Assembly: GCF_900168055.1 (NCBI RefSeq)
Contig: NZ_FUYS01000002.1
Span: 888 to 64,887 of the forward strand
DNA: 64,000 nucleotides
DNA from: Parapedobacter luteus
GTDB lineage: Bacteria > Bacteroidota > Bacteroidia > Sphingobacteriales > Sphingobacteriaceae
Direction: 5' to 3'
This document shows positions 18,090-24,597 of the stretch, piece by piece. Numbering within the stretch: position 1 is the stretch's first letter; each line of letters starts with the position of its first letter. Below the pieces are notes generated by a model that searched no databases, was not told the origin of the DNA, and saw only the letters and a program-made list of their open reading frames with translations. Position numbers and translations under genes: made by a program.

Positions 18090-18950
18090 TTAAGCGAATA
18101 TCGCTGCCGCACCGATCAAGGCAGCATGCTCGCCCAATTGGCTGATGTGGATGTCAAATTGGTTAAACGCCTCCGGGTTAAACTGCTGGAAAATAGCCCA
18201 AGCCTTCGAGATATTGCCACCGATGATAAATCGATCCGTTACTTCTTTCTGGCTGAAGTACCGCATGAAGTTCAGCAAGTGATGGCTGTACTCGGCCAGT
18301 ATATCGTCTACGAACGCATGCTGGTCACGCAGCTGAAGCAACTCACGGAGTCCGGTTACCGCTTTGCCGTGTTGTGCTGTGCGGCGAACAAACCACCGTG
18401 TGACCAAATGTTCCTCCATATTGCTGTCGAGGTATGGCGTCTTCCACAGGTCGGCATCCACGGCATTTTTTCCTCGCTCCCAGACGGCGCTTCCCAAGCC
18501 GGTGCCTAAGGTGATACCCAGCATTTTAGCATGGCCATTATGCTTGCCGGCAAAAACTTCACCCTGCAGAAAAGCCGCTGCATCGTTGATAAAGCGGATG
18601 TTTTGGCCCTCAACGCCCGTTCGTTCCGCCAGTTCAGTACGGATATCCATGCCATACAGGTTGTCATATTTGTCTTGATCCCGCATGCGCGAAATGCCAC
18701 CTTCATAATCGAACGGCCCCGGCATCGCGATACCGATGAGGTGTGCGGGCAAATCAGGATGCTTACTGATAACTTCCTGAAAAGGTGCTGCCCATGCTGA
18801 TAAAATCGATTTAGCATCGGCATGAGAATCAACGTGATACCGGCAGATAGAATCATCAATGACCCGCCATTGACGCGTGTCTACCAGTGCCGCGGTGATA
18901 TGGGTGCCCCCGATGTCGGAAGCGATTACGTAAGGATTATTTTGTTGCAT
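18090..18950 (-). CDS. ROK family sugar kinase-like protein
   Basis: The 286-residue product has the ASKHA phosphate-binding loops [13 protein letters not shown] near the N-terminus and [12 protein letters not shown] in the middle, plus the acidic [12 protein letters not shown] region, all typical of ROK proteins. The zinc-binding CxCGxxGC motif of many ROK kinases is missing, and there is no N-terminal helix-turn-helix, so it is a kinase-like rather than a repressor-type member. The likely reaction is ATP-dependent phosphorylation of a hexose. ATG at 18950 begins at the conserved core and overlaps the aroC stop by 14 bases, so it is the last gene of the aromatic operon, an unexpected place for a sugar kinase. 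Confidence 0.8.
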
Positions 18951-20040
18951 GATAGATTTGGTGTCTAAGTAAATGATCAGCAATGACAAGCGCGGCCATG
19001 GCTTCCACAATAATCACGGCGCGGGGCACCACGCAGGGGTCATGCCTGCCCTTTCCGGTGATTTCGGTTGATTCCCCGGTTTGGTTGATGGTCTGTTGGG
19101 GGCGCATGACTGTGGCCACGGGTTTGAACGCTACACGGAATGTGATGTCCATGCCGTTTGAGATGCCTCCCTGGATGCCGCCAGAAAAGTTGGTTGACGT
19201 TTCCAGTTTACCGGCATCATTGTTCGGGTTGACGAAGATGTCGTTATGTTCAGTGCCCTGCATTTCAGACCCGGCAAATCCGGAGCCGTATTCAAACCCA
19301 TGCACTGCATTGATGCTCATCATTGCTTTGGCCAGGTCGGCGTGCAATTTGTCGAATACCGGTTCGCCCAGGCCTACGGGCACTCCCTGGATGATTGCGC
19401 TGATGCGGCCGCCTACCGTGTCTCCCGCTTTGCGTATGCCGTCAATGAAGGCGATCATCTCATTGGCCGTGGCGGGATCGGCACAGCGAACCATGTTGCT
19501 TTCCCGTATGGCAAGCAGCTCATTGACGTCATCCGAATGTAAATTCGGTGCCTCGATTTTGCCTACACCTGACACATGCGCAAAAATGCGGATTCCCTGT
19601 TGAGCTAACACACTTTTCGCTATAGCGCCGGCAGCGACACGGGCGGCCGTTTCGCGGGCAGACGAGCGCCCTCCGCCGCGGTAATCGCGGATGCCATACT
19701 TCATCTGGTAGGTGTAGTCGGCGTGGGAAGGACGGTATTTGTCTTGGATGTGCGAATAATCCTTAGATCGCTGGTCTTCGTTTGGAATGACCATGGCTAA
19801 AGGTGTGCCCGTGGTTTTGCCTTCAAACACCCCGGACAGTATTTTGGCGGTATCGCTCTCCTTACGCTGCGTGGTAATCTTGGACTGCCCCGGCCGCCGT
19901 TTATCCAGCTCGGACTGGACAAACGACTCGTCAACGGTGATATTCGGTGGGCAACCATCGATAATTACGCCAATTGCTTCCCCATGTGACTCGCCGAAGG
20001 TGGTAATACGGAATAGTTCTCCAAAAGAGTTTCCGGCCAT
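18937..20040 (-). CDS. aroC: Chorismate synthase
   Basis: The enzyme removes phosphate from 5-enolpyruvylshikimate 3-phosphate to give chorismate, using reduced FMN. The 367-residue product has the family's conserved segments: [18 protein letters not shown] at the start, the RPGQS and [18 protein letters not shown] regions, [21 protein letters not shown] and the C-terminal [20 protein letters not shown]. Length matches the family. It lies 76 bases after aroA and before the ROK gene in an operon that starts at the pheA attenuator. Confidence 0.97.
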
Positions 20041-20116: not shown

Positions 20117-21373
20117 CTAAGATATAACAAATCCCTGTTGTTTCAAATGTTTCCAGAAATCGGGATAGGATTTTTCTACCACCCGCGGCTCATTGATTTG
20201 CATATTGCTGAACACCAAAGCCAAAGGCGCGAAAGCCATAGCCATGCGGTGATCTTCATACGTATCGATGATGAGCTGTTCAGGACTGTGCAGGCCTTCG
20301 GTGTGCAGATGGTATACTGCGCCGTCTTCCACCAGCCTTACGCCGAATTTCGCCAGCTCGTTCTGCAGGGCGGCGATGCGGTCTGTTTCCTTGATTTTCA
20401 GCGTGTGCAATCCGGTGAAAGAAAGGTCGCGTTTCAACGCCGCTGCACAGACAATCACAGTTTGCGCCAAATCGGGGCATTCTTTGAAATCAAACAGTTT
20501 CTTTGCCGAGTGTACGGTGGTTTTTTGGATGCGTAAGCCGCCGTCTTCAAAAGAAGAGGCCACGCCGAAGTGGGTCATGATTTCCACAATGGCGGCATCC
20601 CCTTGTAAGCTGCTGCTTTTCAGGTTGGGCAAAAATAGATTTGCTTCGTTGGCTAGCGCCACCATGGCATACCAGTAGGAGGCGGCGCTCCAGTCCGGTT
20701 CGATGGTCAGTTGGCAGGGCGACGCCGTTTGCGGCATAATCGAAATGGTTTCTGCCTCCCAGCGGTGTTGGATGCCGGCTTCGGCCAGCATGTTTAATGT
20801 CATGGTGAGGTAAGGCCGCGATGTCAGTTCGCCCTCAATTTGCAGGTTTAGTCCCTGCGGGAGGGATGAGGCAACCAACAGTAATGCCGACAGATACTGG
20901 CTGCTGACATGACCTTGTACCCTGACATGGGCGGTTTGCTGCGTAAAACCCCCTTGGATGGCAAGTGGAGGATAACCCGCTGTTTCAGCGTACCGGACAT
21001 CTGCGCCCAAGGTGGTCAGCGCGTCCACCAGTATACCGATGGGCCGCTGCTTCATCCGGTCACTCCCTGTCAGCAGGTAGCGGCCGTCGGTGATGGCCAG
21101 GTAAGCGGTCAGAAACCGCATGGCCGTGCCAGCGGGACCGACATCGATCACCGTCTGCTGCGTACTGTCGCCCCGTTGTCCGGAGGCAGCACGCAGCGCC
21201 TGTTGTAAGGTCACAGTATCGGCGGCAGAAGACAGGTTTTCAATGCGGACCTTACCGCCGCCAAGGGCCTGTATGATCAGCGCCCGGTTACTCTCGCTTT
21301 TCGAACCCGTAAGTCGTACGGTCCCGTTGAGCGATTTCGCTGGATGCGAAAGTTTCAACGCACTGATTTCCAT
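20117..21373 (-). CDS. aroA: 3-phosphoshikimate 1-carboxyvinyltransferase (EPSP synthase)
   Basis: The enzyme transfers the enolpyruvyl group of phosphoenolpyruvate to shikimate 3-phosphate. The 418-residue protein shows LTGSKSESNRALIIQAL at the N-terminus, DVGPAGTAMRFLTAYLA, KETDRIAALQNELAKFG and the C-terminal EDHRMAMAFAPLAL, all EPSP synthase signatures. Its start codon shares a base with the stop codon of the upstream DAHP synthase gene (TAATG), so translation is almost certainly coupled. Confidence 0.96.
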   Translation of the reverse strand: MEISALKLSHPAKSLNGTVRLTGSKSESNRALIIQALGGGKVRIENLSSAADTVTLQQALRAASGQRGDSTQQTVIDVGPAGTAMRFLTAYLAITDGRYLLTGSDRMKQRPIGILVDALTTLGADVRYAETAGYPPLAIQGGFTQQTAHVRVQGHVSSQYLSALLLVASSLPQGLNLQIEGELTSRPYLTMTLNMLAEAGIQHRWEAETISIMPQTASPCQLTIEPDWSAASYWYAMVALANEANLFLPNLKSSSLQGDAAIVEIMTHFGVASSFEDGGLRIQKTTVHSAKKLFDFKECPDLAQTVIVCAAALKRDLSFTGLHTLKIKETDRIAALQNELAKFGVRLVEDGAVYHLHTEGLHSPEQLIIDTYEDHRMAMAFAPLALVFSNMQINEPRVVEKSYPDFWKHLKQQGFVIS

Positions 21374-22479
21374 TATGCCTCTGCTACCGGTTTGGTGTTC
21401 ATGATTTCGTTCTGTTTGCGGATGGATTCGTTATGAATCAGTTCCAGCAACTTCACCGTGAAATCGCGGTCAAGTTTAAGTGCCTGGGCCACGTTGCTCC
21501 GTTTTTGGATGATTTCATCCCAGCGGCTGACCTGGAGGATGGTCACATTGTTGTCGCGTTTATATTCACCGATTTTTTCGACGATCTTCATTCGGTCGCT
21601 CAGGATTTTGATGATTTGGTCATCCAGCTTGTCAATATCTTTGCGCAATTGTGCCAGTTTATCTTCAAAAACCGGGTCATCTGACTTGGCGTGCCGGAAG
21701 GTAAGGTTGGCGAGAATGTCAGAAAGTGCTTGGGGGGTGACTTGCTGTTTGGCGTCCGTCCAAGCCACGGATGGGTCGATATGCGATTCAACAATAAGCC
21801 CCTGCATGTCCATGTCGAATGCTTTTTGTGCAATGTACGGAATCAACTCCCTGTTTCCGCAGATGTGGCTGGGATCGTTGATCACCGGAAGATCAGGCAC
21901 AAGTGTTTTCAATTGGATGGCGATATCCCACATGGGCTCATTACGGAAGGCGGTTTTTTCGTAGGAGGAGAAGCCCCGGTGGATAGCTGCCAGTTTTTTG
22001 ATGCCTGCACGGTTTACGCGTTCCAGCGCGCCCAACCAAAGAGACAGGTCCGGATTGACGGGGTTTTTGACCAGTACGGGCACGTCTACACCTTTCAGCG
22101 CATCAGCGATCTCCTGCACGGTAAACGGGTTGGCGGTAGATCGGGCGCCTATCCAAAGGATATCCACGCCTGCTGCCAGCGCTTCTTCCACGTGCTTTGC
22201 TGTGGCCACTTCCGTCGCGATGGGCAGTCCGGTTTCATCTTTAGCCCGGCGGTACCATTGCAGTCCAATGCTGCCGATGCCTTCAAATTCACCCGGACGT
22301 GTGCGGGGCTTCCAGATGCCTGCCCGTAATACGTTTACTTTGCCGGTGTTGGCCAGCAGGTGTGCTGTGGCGACGAGCTGTTCCTCCGTCTCCGCACTGC
22401 ACGGGCCGGCGATGATCAGTGGCGCGTCGCCGGTGTCAAGCCATGATTTTAAGGGTACGATGTCTAATGTCTGTTTCAT
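21373..22479 (-). CDS. Bifunctional 3-deoxy-7-phosphoheptulonate synthase / chorismate mutase
   Basis: The 368-residue protein carries a type I-beta (KDO8P-like) DAHP synthase domain at about residues 1-265 (PLIIAGPCSAETEEQL, RAGIWKPRTRPGEFEG, INDPSHICGNRELIP) and an AroQ chorismate mutase domain at about 275-355 (DIDKLDDQIIKILSDRMKIV, GEYKRDNN). It condenses erythrose 4-phosphate and phosphoenolpyruvate, and separately turns chorismate into prephenate. The mutase domain in such fusions commonly gives allosteric control. It sits 79 bases after pheA and overlaps aroA by one base, placing the first and later committed steps under the same attenuator. Confidence 0.95.
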   Translation of the reverse strand: MKQTLDIVPLKSWLDTGDAPLIIAGPCSAETEEQLVATAHLLANTGKVNVLRAGIWKPRTRPGEFEGIGSIGLQWYRRAKDETGLPIATEVATAKHVEEALAAGVDILWIGARSTANPFTVQEIADALKGVDVPVLVKNPVNPDLSLWLGALERVNRAGIKKLAAIHRGFSSYEKTAFRNEPMWDIAIQLKTLVPDLPVINDPSHICGNRELIPYIAQKAFDMDMQGLIVESHIDPSVAWTDAKQQVTPQALSDILANLTFRHAKSDDPVFEDKLAQLRKDIDKLDDQIIKILSDRMKIVEKIGEYKRDNNVTILQVSRWDEIIQKRSNVAQALKLDRDFTVKLLELIHNESIRKQNEIMNTKPVAEA

Positions 22480-22558: not shown

Positions 22559-23383
22559 TCACACCTTGTCATTCTTCACGTATTCCCCCATGATGTTGAA
22601 ATTGCTGGTGTACTTGAGCACGCGGCGGATGGCTGCATCATAATCTGCTTGATCCTTCCATTCCACATCGACATAGAAATCGTATTCGTTGCGCTTGCCC
22701 AATACAGGCATGGACTGTATCTTGCTGAGGTTGATGTTCTGCTCGGCAAAGCACTGCAACACCGTTGATAGCGAACCTACGCCATTGCCGGTCTGGAAAG
22801 ATATGGAAGCCTTGTTGACTTTGCCTCGTTCTTCAGGCTTGCTGCTCAGGATAAGGAAGCGGGTGTAATTTTTCTTGTTGGTTTCTATGCGGCGTTCCAG
22901 AATTTCCAGGCCATATAATTTTGCCGCCAGTTGGGGAGCGATAGCCGCGGTATCCCGGAGTTGCAATTCGCTCACTTTCTTTGCACTTGCCGCGGTATCT
23001 TCCGCTTCGGTCACCTTAAACTGAGGGTTTTCTTCCAGGTAGTCATTGCACTGTTGCAGCGCGATGGGGTGGGACTCCACATATTTGATGTCCTGGATTG
23101 ATACGTCGGGCAGGGCCATCAGGTGCAGTTTGATGTGCAGGTACGCTTCGCCCACGATCGGAAAACGGTAGTCGCGAAGCAGGTTGTAGTTGGGAAGCAA
23201 GCTGCCGGCGATGGAATTTTCAATGGCCATCACGATGTAATCCACCTTGCCCTGCTTTAGCAGTTCACACATTTTTTTAAACGATTCGCACTCCACGGTT
23301 TCGATTTTATCGCCGAAATATTTATAGGCTGCCTCTTCATGGAATGACCCTTTGATGCCTTGTATCGCTACTTTTATGTTCAT
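22559..23383 (-). CDS. pheA: Prephenate dehydratase
   Basis: The enzyme converts prephenate to phenylpyruvate, the committed step to phenylalanine. The 274-residue protein has a periplasmic-binding-protein-like catalytic region (about residues 1-180: VAIQGIKGSFHEEAA, AIENSIAGSL and the catalytic Thr-Arg-Phe in NKKNYTRFLIL) and a C-terminal ACT domain (about 195-270: GVGSLSTVLQCFAEQNINLS) that binds phenylalanine for feedback inhibition. It is the first structural gene after the Phe-rich leader and terminator at 23406-23539, which predicts transcriptional attenuation in addition to feedback control. Confidence 0.96.
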   Translation of the reverse strand: MNIKVAIQGIKGSFHEEAAYKYFGDKIETVECESFKKMCELLKQGKVDYIVMAIENSIAGSLLPNYNLLRDYRFPIVGEAYLHIKLHLMALPDVSIQDIKYVESHPIALQQCNDYLEENPQFKVTEAEDTAASAKKVSELQLRDTAAIAPQLAAKLYGLEILERRIETNKKNYTRFLILSSKPEERGKVNKASISFQTGNGVGSLSTVLQCFAEQNINLSKIQSMPVLGKRNEYDFYVDVEWKDQADYDAAIRRVLKYTSNFNIMGEYVKNDKV

Positions 23384-23405
23384 AAATTATGTAAATGGAC
23401 AAAAA

Positions 23406-23433
23406 AAAGTCCCGGCTTTTCTGCCGGGACTTT
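23406..23433 (-). terminator. Attenuator terminator of the pheA operon
   Basis: On the minus strand AAAGTCCCGGC (23433-23423), a 6-base loop and GCCGGGACTTT (23416-23406) form an 11-bp perfect stem followed by five more T residues (eight in all): a textbook intrinsic terminator. It lies 22 bases upstream of pheA and downstream of the leader peptide. The 5' arm can instead pair with 23470-23478 (GCCGGGAUU, nine pairs including one G-U), which would prevent termination. Confidence 0.85.
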
Positions 23434-23467
23434 CTACATTTCTATCTTTTAACGTTATCAATGCATA

Positions 23468-23539
23468 TCAATCCCGGCTCTCACTGCTAAAGTAAAAGAA
23501 ACCAAAAAACCAATATGCGTTGTTCCGTGTTAACATCAT
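23468..23539 (-). CDS. Phenylalanine leader peptide of the pheA operon
   Basis: This 23-codon frame starts with two Met codons (23539 and 23536) and contains NNAYWFFGFFYFSS, that is five Phe, two Tyr and one Trp within nine codons, then SESRD and a stop. It lies between a promoter ending at 23555 and a strong intrinsic terminator before pheA. I infer that ribosome stalling at the aromatic codons when Phe-tRNA is scarce leaves the sequence coding ...SRD free to pair with the 5' arm of the terminator, so the operon is read; completing the peptide covers that sequence and termination follows. The frame stays open upstream beyond the promoter, but only the short form lies on the predicted transcript. 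Confidence 0.8.
   Translation of the reverse strand: MMLTRNNAYWFFGFFYFSSESRD
23470..23478 (-). promoter_or_regulatory. Antiterminator arm in the leader-peptide codons
   Basis: The minus-strand RNA reads GCCGGGAUU here, within the last codons of the leader (Ser-Arg-Asp-stop). It is complementary over nine pairs to AAGUCCCGGC in the 5' arm of the terminator at 23423-23433. The two pairings exclude one another, as attenuation needs. Confidence 0.7.
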
Positions 23540-23554
23540 TGTTGTTTGACGAGC

Positions 23555-23584
23555 CAAATGTACATCAATTTTTTTTATTGTCAA
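23555..23584 (-). promoter_or_regulatory. Promoter of the pheA leader
   Basis: On the minus strand TTGACA (23584-23579), 16 bases, then TACATTTG (23562-23555). The second box matches the Bacteroidota -7 consensus TAnnTTTG, and TTG of the first box matches the -33 element. Transcription would begin near 23548, about 9 bases before the leader start codon. Confidence 0.65.
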
Positions 23585-23823: not shown

Positions 23824-24597
23824 GTGGCCATTCAGAAAAGCTCAATTACCCTTGAAGGACAAATCGGGGATTTGTCTTTCTACAACAGCAACGGTAAGGC
23901 ACTTGTCCGGCAACGCACTGGGGCCAGTAAGGAACGTATCAAGACCGACCCTTCCTTCGCGAGGACACGCGAAAACAACACCGAATTCGGACGTGCCAGT
24001 ACTGCGGGGAGGCTCATCCGCGTAGCGACGAGGCTGGCGCTGGGTGAGCGTTATACGTTGTTTGAAGATCCAACGGCAGTCAATCGGCTGACGACACGTA
24101 TGACGGGCGTCGTCCGGTCAGACACCATGCACAGCCGGGGCGAACGCACTGTATTGCCCGAAAGTCTACCTTTGCTTCATGGATTCAGTTTCAATGCGGT
24201 TGCCGCATTGAAGGATGTATTGTTTATCCCGCCCCGTTGTGCCTATCAGCGGGAGACCGGCCTGCTGGAGGTCACGCTTCCGGCGCTGTCTCCCGGTAAC
24301 GCGATGGCGGCGCCTAAGGGCGCGGAGCGCTGCAGTTTTCATGTAGGAGCCATCTTGTTCAATGCCGGCGTGGAGCCGTTGCCCGTTGTCGCGCAGCATC
24401 AAGAACTGCTGCCAATGGATTGGCAGACCATTCCTGCGCAGACCTTCCGGCTGGAGTTGCCCGAGGCGTCGACTGACCCGGTAATCATCTGCTTTGGAAT
24501 TTCTTTTTACAGGAATTTAGGCGGTTATCCCGTGCCGATATCGGATCAAGGGCGAAATGTCTTCGAAGTGATTGGTGTAGATGTAGCGGCCGGATGA
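23824..24597 (+). CDS. Conserved Bacteroidota hypothetical protein
   Basis: A 257-residue product without signal peptide or membrane segment. Its start (AIQKSSITLEGQIGDLSFYN, then VRQRTGASKERIKTDPSFAR and TRENNTEFGRAS) has the look of a family I have seen only as uncharacterised proteins in Sphingobacteriales; no enzymatic motif is evident. The start must be GTG at 23824, because an in-frame TAG lies two codons upstream and the conserved-looking N-terminus begins immediately. It ends one base before the next gene, so the two are made together and probably work together with the exported partner. Confidence 0.75.
   Translation: MAIQKSSITLEGQIGDLSFYNSNGKALVRQRTGASKERIKTDPSFARTRENNTEFGRASTAGRLIRVATRLALGERYTLFEDPTAVNRLTTRMTGVVRSDTMHSRGERTVLPESLPLLHGFSFNAVAALKDVLFIPPRCAYQRETGLLEVTLPALSPGNAMAAPKGAERCSFHVGAILFNAGVEPLPVVAQHQELLPMDWQTIPAQTFRLELPEASTDPVIICFGISFYRNLGGYPVPISDQGRNVFEVIGVDVAAG

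Follow-up and report, generated by a model that had tools for sequence, protein, structure and literature searches.

A probable ribosome-mediated attenuator with a Phe- and Tyr-rich leader before pheA of Parapedobacter, and its recurrence among families of Bacteroidia

The Escherichia coli pheA gene is preceded by pheL, a short Phe-rich leader ORF, together with alternative 1:2, 2:3 and 3:4 pairings and an intrinsic terminator. Within the Bacteroidota, the parts of a study of Flavobacterium psychrophilum that deal with amino acid operons report strong clues for leader-peptide attenuation, and describe a structured 5′ element upstream of pheA that is also present in other Flavobacteriaceae genera (PMC9723704). 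This element concerns the same gene and phylum as the Parapedobacter attenuator described here and may correspond to it; the section on the F. psychrophilum pheA element is silent on leader sequence, arms and wider distribution (PMC9723704). The motifs listed in PMC2864571 include Bacteroid-trp (RF01692), a candidate cis-regulatory RNA of Bacteroidetes tied by its name to trp genes, and short ORFs that resemble leader peptides have been noted in Bacteroides (PMC7366714). A first-pass annotation of our locus had called ribosome-mediated attenuation best described in Proteobacteria, which has to be qualified, as Bacteroidota cases are not unreported (PMC9723704). A published description of the pheA switch was not found in the literature searched, which covers few subscription papers. 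Lopatovskaya 2010 may already list Bacteroidetes attenuators. The regulation is of the textbook type and not a new kind; its comparative detail and its breadth before pheA were not seen in print within the literature searched.

The Parapedobacter element resembles E. coli pheL in having a short Phe-rich leader, three alternative pairings, an intrinsic terminator and pheA downstream. It differs in mixing Phe with Tyr codons, in having no Shine–Dalgarno sequence and in a 5′ end that is probably very short. The locus is not a member of the Rfam Phe_leader family (RF01859; it scores 24.0 bits, the gathering score being 55), and Bacteroid-trp gave no gathering-score match in the window, in the trp leader of the same genome or in the other 19 loci.

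The window, that is, the whole 64-kb stretch of DNA that was analysed, belongs to the genome of a soil-type bacterium, a Parapedobacter (Sphingobacteriaceae), whose pheA comes closest, among named relatives, to that of Parapedobacter koreensis (95% identity). All parts of the attenuator lie on the minus strand ahead of pheA (Table 1). The promoter, 23-codon leader, antiterminator arm and 11-bp terminator recognized in the first-pass annotation are present base for base, as are the five Phe, two Tyr and one Trp within nine codons. The leader starts with an ATG at 23539 and a second ATG follows at 23536. The terminator (AAAGUCCCGGC / GCCGGGACUUU, 23433-23406) comprises 11 bp with a predicted energy of −19.8 kcal/mol and contains the inverted repeat AAAGTCCCGGC-6-GCCGGGACTTT; a pattern scan that listed 13 terminator sites omitted it, and the folding tools do give it. 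The 158-nt leader RNA as a whole folds at −49.2 kcal/mol (z −5.1 relative to dinucleotide shuffles, none of 200 being equally stable). Both strands of the window were searched for an aromatic-rich ORF (five or more F/Y/W within eight codons) accompanied by a terminator and by an arm 2:arm 3 duplex no weaker than −7.5 kcal/mol, and this was the single place detected. Across 939 kb of 80 named loci the detector returned 44 places before pheA and 8 elsewhere. Upstream of the attenuator, a divergent ORF of 257 amino acids (23824-24597, plus strand) is without Pfam match at E 0.001.

Table 1. Features of the probable pheA attenuator and of the genes behind it (window coordinates)
Feature	Coordinates	Strand	Sequence or composition	Remarks
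Promoter, Bacteroidota type	23555..23584	-	TTGACA 23584-23579, 16-base spacer, TACATTTG 23562-23555	Consensus match
Leader ORF	23468..23539	-	MMLTRNNAYWFFGFFYFSSESRD; 23 codons + TGA (stop 23470-23468)	Aromatic-rich leader in relatives
Regulatory codons 9-17	23489..23515	-	Y W F F G F F Y F	5 Phe, 2 Tyr, 1 Trp
Arm 1	23513..23518	-	GCATAT	Partner 23468-23463; 6-pair helix, pairing in 90% of cells over 47 sequences
Arm 1′	23463..23468	-	ATATGC	Downstream partner of arm 1; pairing in relatives
Inner helix, 5′ side	23491..23498	-	CTTTTACT	Within aromatic codons; partner 23485-23478
Inner helix, 3′ side	23478..23485	-	AGTGAGAG	Partner of 23498-23491
Arm 2 (antiterminator arm)	23470..23478	-	GCCGGGATT (also GCCGGGAUU)	Pairs with arm 3; a ribosome at the leader stop would cover it
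Arm 3 / terminator 5′ side	23423..23433	-	AAAGTCCCGGC	Arm 3 proper, AGTCCCGGC, 23431-23423
Arm 4 and T run / terminator 3′ side	23401..23416	-	GCCGGGAC; eight T, 23408-23401	Intrinsic terminator
pheA, prephenate dehydratase	22559..23383	-		Pfam PF00800 E 1.7e-59; ACT match under cut-off
DAHP synthase / chorismate mutase fusion	21373..22479	-		Pfam PF00793 + PF01817
aroA, EPSP synthase	20117..21373	-		Pfam PF00275 E 2.5e-80
aroC, chorismate synthase	18937..20040	-		Pfam PF01264 E 1.9e-145
ROK-family gene	18090..19010	-		Pfam PF00480 E 3.1e-13; ORF overlapping aroC; putative operon member

With 10 of 12 consensus bases, the predicted promoter reaches the top value in a 7.5-kb scan, equalled by two other sites (14 sites in all against 6.8 expected). 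Of the 57 family-type sequences, 44 have an exact TAnnTTTG ahead of the leader, and 42 of the 44 carry TTG within a 12-base stretch upstream of it, a loose test. The distance from its last base to the leader start is 8–27 nt in 33 of the 44 (15 in the window), and eleven values of 2 are due to an in-frame upstream ATG in Sphingobacterium. Because of these distances, the 5′ untranslated end of the leader RNA, with its presumed transcription start, is probably about ten bases long. Bacteroidota ribosomes rarely use Shine–Dalgarno starts. A Shine–Dalgarno-like 4-mer was found in only one of the 57 stretches upstream of the leader start, which are 51% A, and the start codon is ATG in 56 leaders and GTG in one. 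The short 5′ leader that had been proposed from the single sequence agrees with these data, which add that the leader start has no Shine–Dalgarno motif. Among nine Parapedobacter leaders, pairwise differences at codon positions 3, 1 and 2 number 134, 60 and 38, and the 112 synonymous against 78 other codon differences, with related pairs counted, amount to a modest excess.

An aromatic-rich leader ORF is present in 30/30 fetched pheA loci of the family (33 family genomes have pheA; the loci of G010, G034 and G015 were left out). Together with 40 named loci, assigned to the family by name or by a pheA identity of at least 58% and including two MAGs labelled Bacteroidetes bacterium, these made 70 loci, of which 57 were distinct after 13 with identical last 150 bases had been dropped. 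A script recovered the terminator in 55 of the 57; for the remaining two, L027 and L028, the pattern was set by eye. Dropping a further 10 near-identical Sphingobacterium and Olivibacter rows left an alignment of 47 sequences.

Our alignment shows that two regions of the leader RNA pair with each other in a way that had been missed in the first-pass annotation: its antiterminator and terminator pairings stood, and a third, the 1:2 hairpin, has to be added. This hairpin (GCATAT/ATATGC and CTTTTACT/AGTGAGAG) encloses the aromatic codons. Its cells are 94.9% paired and 27 of them are doubly changed, each value being reached by 0/500 shuffles; the four doubly changed pairs were reached by 87/500 and the pair-type count by 105/500. 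Both sides of the first pair of the arm 1 helix are changed in 14/47 sequences, and one C-G pair of the inner helix becomes U-A on both sides in 10/47. The terminator (3:4) is paired in 96.5% of cells with six pairs changed on both sides (0/500 shuffles). The antiterminator (2:3) is paired in 95.0% (1/500 shuffles as high; slid versions at most 62%), with one doubly changed pair (reached by 282/500 shuffles) and two such cells (71/500), little covariation within the family because the antiterminator is close to invariant. Arm 3 is common to 2:3 and 3:4, so that these pairings exclude each other, as had been proposed, and the exclusive pairings are conserved in the family.

The position of the arms relative to the codons is likewise kept. 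In all 57 leaders the last aromatic codon (counted from its first base and taken as the A-site) is followed by the start of arm 2 at a distance of 10–15 nt, which is roughly how far a ribosome extends ahead of its A-site. Relative to the stop codon, arm 2 ends between −10 and +13, and the terminator begins 21–46 nt beyond the leader stop. In five sequences (L023, L024, L025, L058 and L108) the leader stop comes before arm 2. The RNA nevertheless retains CGGGA there, and therefore arm 2 is conserved as RNA and not as peptide. The Anseongella-type sequences L030 and L069 lack GCATAT and have a different 11-pair helix in place of stem 1; they retain a 9-pair arm 2:arm 3 match with one changed base pair.

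Outside the family, PF00800 matches were found in 68 of the 78 matching genomes (295 class genomes searched), which gave 67 loci once the partial match in G161 was set aside; the upstream stretches of two of them (L171 and L193) end at contig ends. A first detector found the element at 31/67 loci (reverse strand 0/67, shuffles 0/201), and at 34/67 with a looser terminator. Because several of its misses looked like real leaders, with five aromatic codons in eight (L156, L175, L177) or with a weak terminator (L153, L157), the rule was widened after the fact, with fresh controls. The final detector places a leader, a terminator and an arm 2:arm 3 pairing before 40/67 non-family pheA genes, with 0/67 on the reverse strand and 0/335 in dinucleotide shuffles; it drops L163 (pairing −4.6) and misses L155, which looks genuine by eye. 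Positives are spread over 16 of 28 non-family families and include f33 (5/5), f36 (4/4) and f54 (7/8). By this detector the element is absent from 27/67 non-family pheA genes, family f12 giving 0/8; an upstream gene lies within 90 nt of 7/27 negatives versus 1/40 positives.

Since the arms vary widely among families, a real test of the antiterminator was possible. We exchanged arms among 35 leaders from 16 families (34 non-family leaders and the window). Own arm 2:arm 3 pairs reach −12.7 kcal/mol versus −9.2 (s.d. 0.38) for permuted ones (0/20,000 permutations), and five draws of one leader per family each gave 0/20,000. For arm 1:arm 2 in 34 leaders, own pairs average −18.1 versus −13.7 (s.d. 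0.55) after exchange (0/20,000); the comparison pair arm 1:arm 3 gives −4.6 for own and −4.2 for crossed arms. These energies indicate that the antiterminator co-varies between families. The comparison of relatives proposed in the first-pass annotation has therefore been borne out for the leaders, in the family and beyond it, and for the stems, 1:2 and 3:4 showing compensatory changes within the family and 2:3 co-varying between the 16 families. A covariance model, R1, gave E values no higher than 2.9e-16 for all 10 family genomes scored, of which at least six had contributed rows to the model. Twenty weak R1 matches at non-family loci (L121–L140) comprise nine pheA leaders, each beside a PF00800 match, one Trp leader, one His leader and nine loci with none; the R1 tally of 239/295 genomes is not an attenuator count, because weak scores mostly fall on ordinary terminators.

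Codon content bears on what the leader would sense. The 57 family leaders have on average 4.1 F, 3.9 Y and 0.4 W codons, and 34 non-family leaders 4.65 F, 3.62 Y and 0.24 W, with F and Y both present in 34/34. The earlier proposal of a Phe attenuator, perhaps also responding to Tyr or Trp, gains comparative support and is shifted by it: Tyr is about as frequent as Phe in the family and somewhat rarer than Phe outside it, which makes this a Phe and Tyr leader, and Trp is rare. We prefer the reading that the leader senses Phe and Tyr together, because the putative operon makes their shared precursors; the predicted response follows from the codons.

We modeled the switch by removing RNA up to an assumed ribosome leading edge 15 nt past the first base of the A-site codon. 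In this fold model, the probability of arm 2:3 pairing in the nascent RNA is 0.99 with the A-site at codons 10-16, 0.77 at codon 17, 0.43 at codon 18 and 0.00 from codon 19 onward. Without a ribosome, the predicted probability of the 1:2 hairpin stays at 0.99-1.00 until arm 3 has largely emerged. Once arm 3 is complete, 2:3 outweighs the 1:2 hairpin until arm 4 has almost fully emerged. Full-length RNA at equilibrium favours the terminator in all cases modeled, including a ribosome stalled at codons 10-16 (p34 0.76-0.94). Because the equilibrium RNA prefers the terminator in every modeled case, antitermination must, according to the model, be kinetic.

Taken with the comparative data, the model argues that this element is very probably a classic ribosome-mediated transcription attenuator sensing the charging of Phe-tRNA and Tyr-tRNA. 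Because all close relatives examined and many distant ones have the element, a shortage of these amino acids is most likely sensed by a moving ribosome. The transcript would begin a few bases below TACATTTG, and a ribosome would load on the A-rich 5′ end of about 10 nt without a Shine–Dalgarno sequence and translate the leader while RNA polymerase proceeds. When Phe and Tyr are ample, the ribosome would mask arm 2 at the stop codon, the 3:4 hairpin would form and transcription would stop before pheA. When charged Phe- or Tyr-tRNA is scarce, it would stall in codons 9-17 and open the 1:2 hairpin, and the freed arm 2 could pair with arm 3 while arm 4 has still to be transcribed, allowing read-through into pheA, DAHP synthase/chorismate mutase, aroA and aroC. 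With no ribosome, the 1:2 hairpin would form first and termination would be the default.

Part of the leader peptide is itself conserved, and an arrest peptide would explain this differently: the aromatic-rich nascent chain would stall the ribosome on a free metabolite and not on uncharged tRNA, much as the TnaC nascent peptide stalls the ribosome in response to Trp. The core (A/T)Y...GY/F-FYF is fairly conserved in the family, but what leaders outside it retain is chiefly the density of F and Y codons, spacing and the remaining residues varying between families, and F and Y are mixed in every one of the 34 leaders counted. Arm 2 RNA accounts for the C-terminal SKSRD, because the five sequences with an early stop lose SKSRD in the peptide and keep CGGGA in the RNA. 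We consider an arrest peptide very unlikely.

Nor do the data fit well with the plain terminator of an upstream transcript next to a chance aromatic ORF, for which the odds are next to negligible. Although chance Phe codons do arise in T-rich DNA and the covariance model weakly matches ordinary terminators, the detector stayed silent in its reverse-strand and shuffled controls, matched once in the window and favoured places before pheA, the pairings show compensatory change, and the leader is conserved along with the switch arms. Direct binding of a metabolite or a tRNA (riboswitch, T-box), or of a protein to an attenuator, would equally place a structured 5′ element ahead of an amino acid operon, and the part of PMC9723704 on the flavobacterial pheA element terms its type probably original cis-regulatory elements. 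We regard such binding as extremely unlikely, since the conserved parts are codons and switch arms and no Rfam family, T-box included, scored at gathering level, either in the window or in the 20 further loci scanned.

Leaders rich in other amino acids were observed at several loci. Elsewhere in the Parapedobacter genome, a Trp leader, MNKFRIALWWRLDGNNVGQAGTVTCG, precedes trpE (L254, G000:C11) with an arm 2 (AACGTCGGG), an arm 3 (CCCGACGTT) and a terminator by eye, and is likely a second attenuator of this genome. WWW leaders occur at 5/7 other Parapedobacter trpE loci (L255, L256, L257, L259 and L261), and the screen found none at L258 and L260. Two family relatives carry a Thr/Ile leader with a terminator (MIFNTSIITTIIITTGINQRG in L208, shorter in L209) before a gene that starts with an amino acid kinase domain (PF00696) of the aspartokinase type, which is probably an aspartokinase/homoserine dehydrogenase; these leaders, both outside the window, are similar in logic to the E. 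coli thr leader. Two further leaders, each with a terminator by eye, belong to other families of the class: the Trp leader MRIILNNNWWWLNS before an anthranilate synthase gene (L130, G117) and the His leader MNTLAINMHHHHYFCA before hisG (L137, G092).

A His-rich leader also lies about 465 nt before the HisG match of the Parapedobacter genome (L218, G000:C6). At this locus and at L215, L220-L226 and L230-L232, a conserved element of about 18 bases, TGTATGTTTCTACGTGAARC, comes after the leader, and no intrinsic terminator was seen by eye between leader and hisG in these family loci. The His alignment holds 12 of 22 hisG loci chosen by an exact 16-base word, and part of the element's invariance therefore reflects selection of the loci. 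With two mismatches allowed, the element occurs in 18/41 genomes, once in 17 of them, and 17 of the 18 are within the family. Rho-dependent and translational control are candidate mechanisms for this leader.

We put forward tentatively, as a view more likely to be wrong than right, that leader-peptide attenuation is general and old in the Bacteroidia, with Shine–Dalgarno-free 5′ ends of about ten bases and a His leader that exits otherwise. If so, Phe and Tyr codons before pheA, Trp codons before trpE and Thr/Ile codons before the aspartokinase gene would be one strategy, the His leader without an intrinsic terminator would act through its conserved element of about 18 bases, and the leading ribosome and the polymerase would be tightly timed in Bacteroidota. 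The pheA element provides a fully specified and testable attenuator in this phylum, of a design that recurs before pheA across many families. Annotators could use it to spot a small gene as well as a regulator, both of which the Rfam models applied here overlook, and attenuators of this kind may serve as a source of amino-acid-responsive parts for Bacteroidota. As the switch would need the first ribosome to be close behind the polymerase, it would offer a direct test of the timing of transcription and translation in Bacteroidota.
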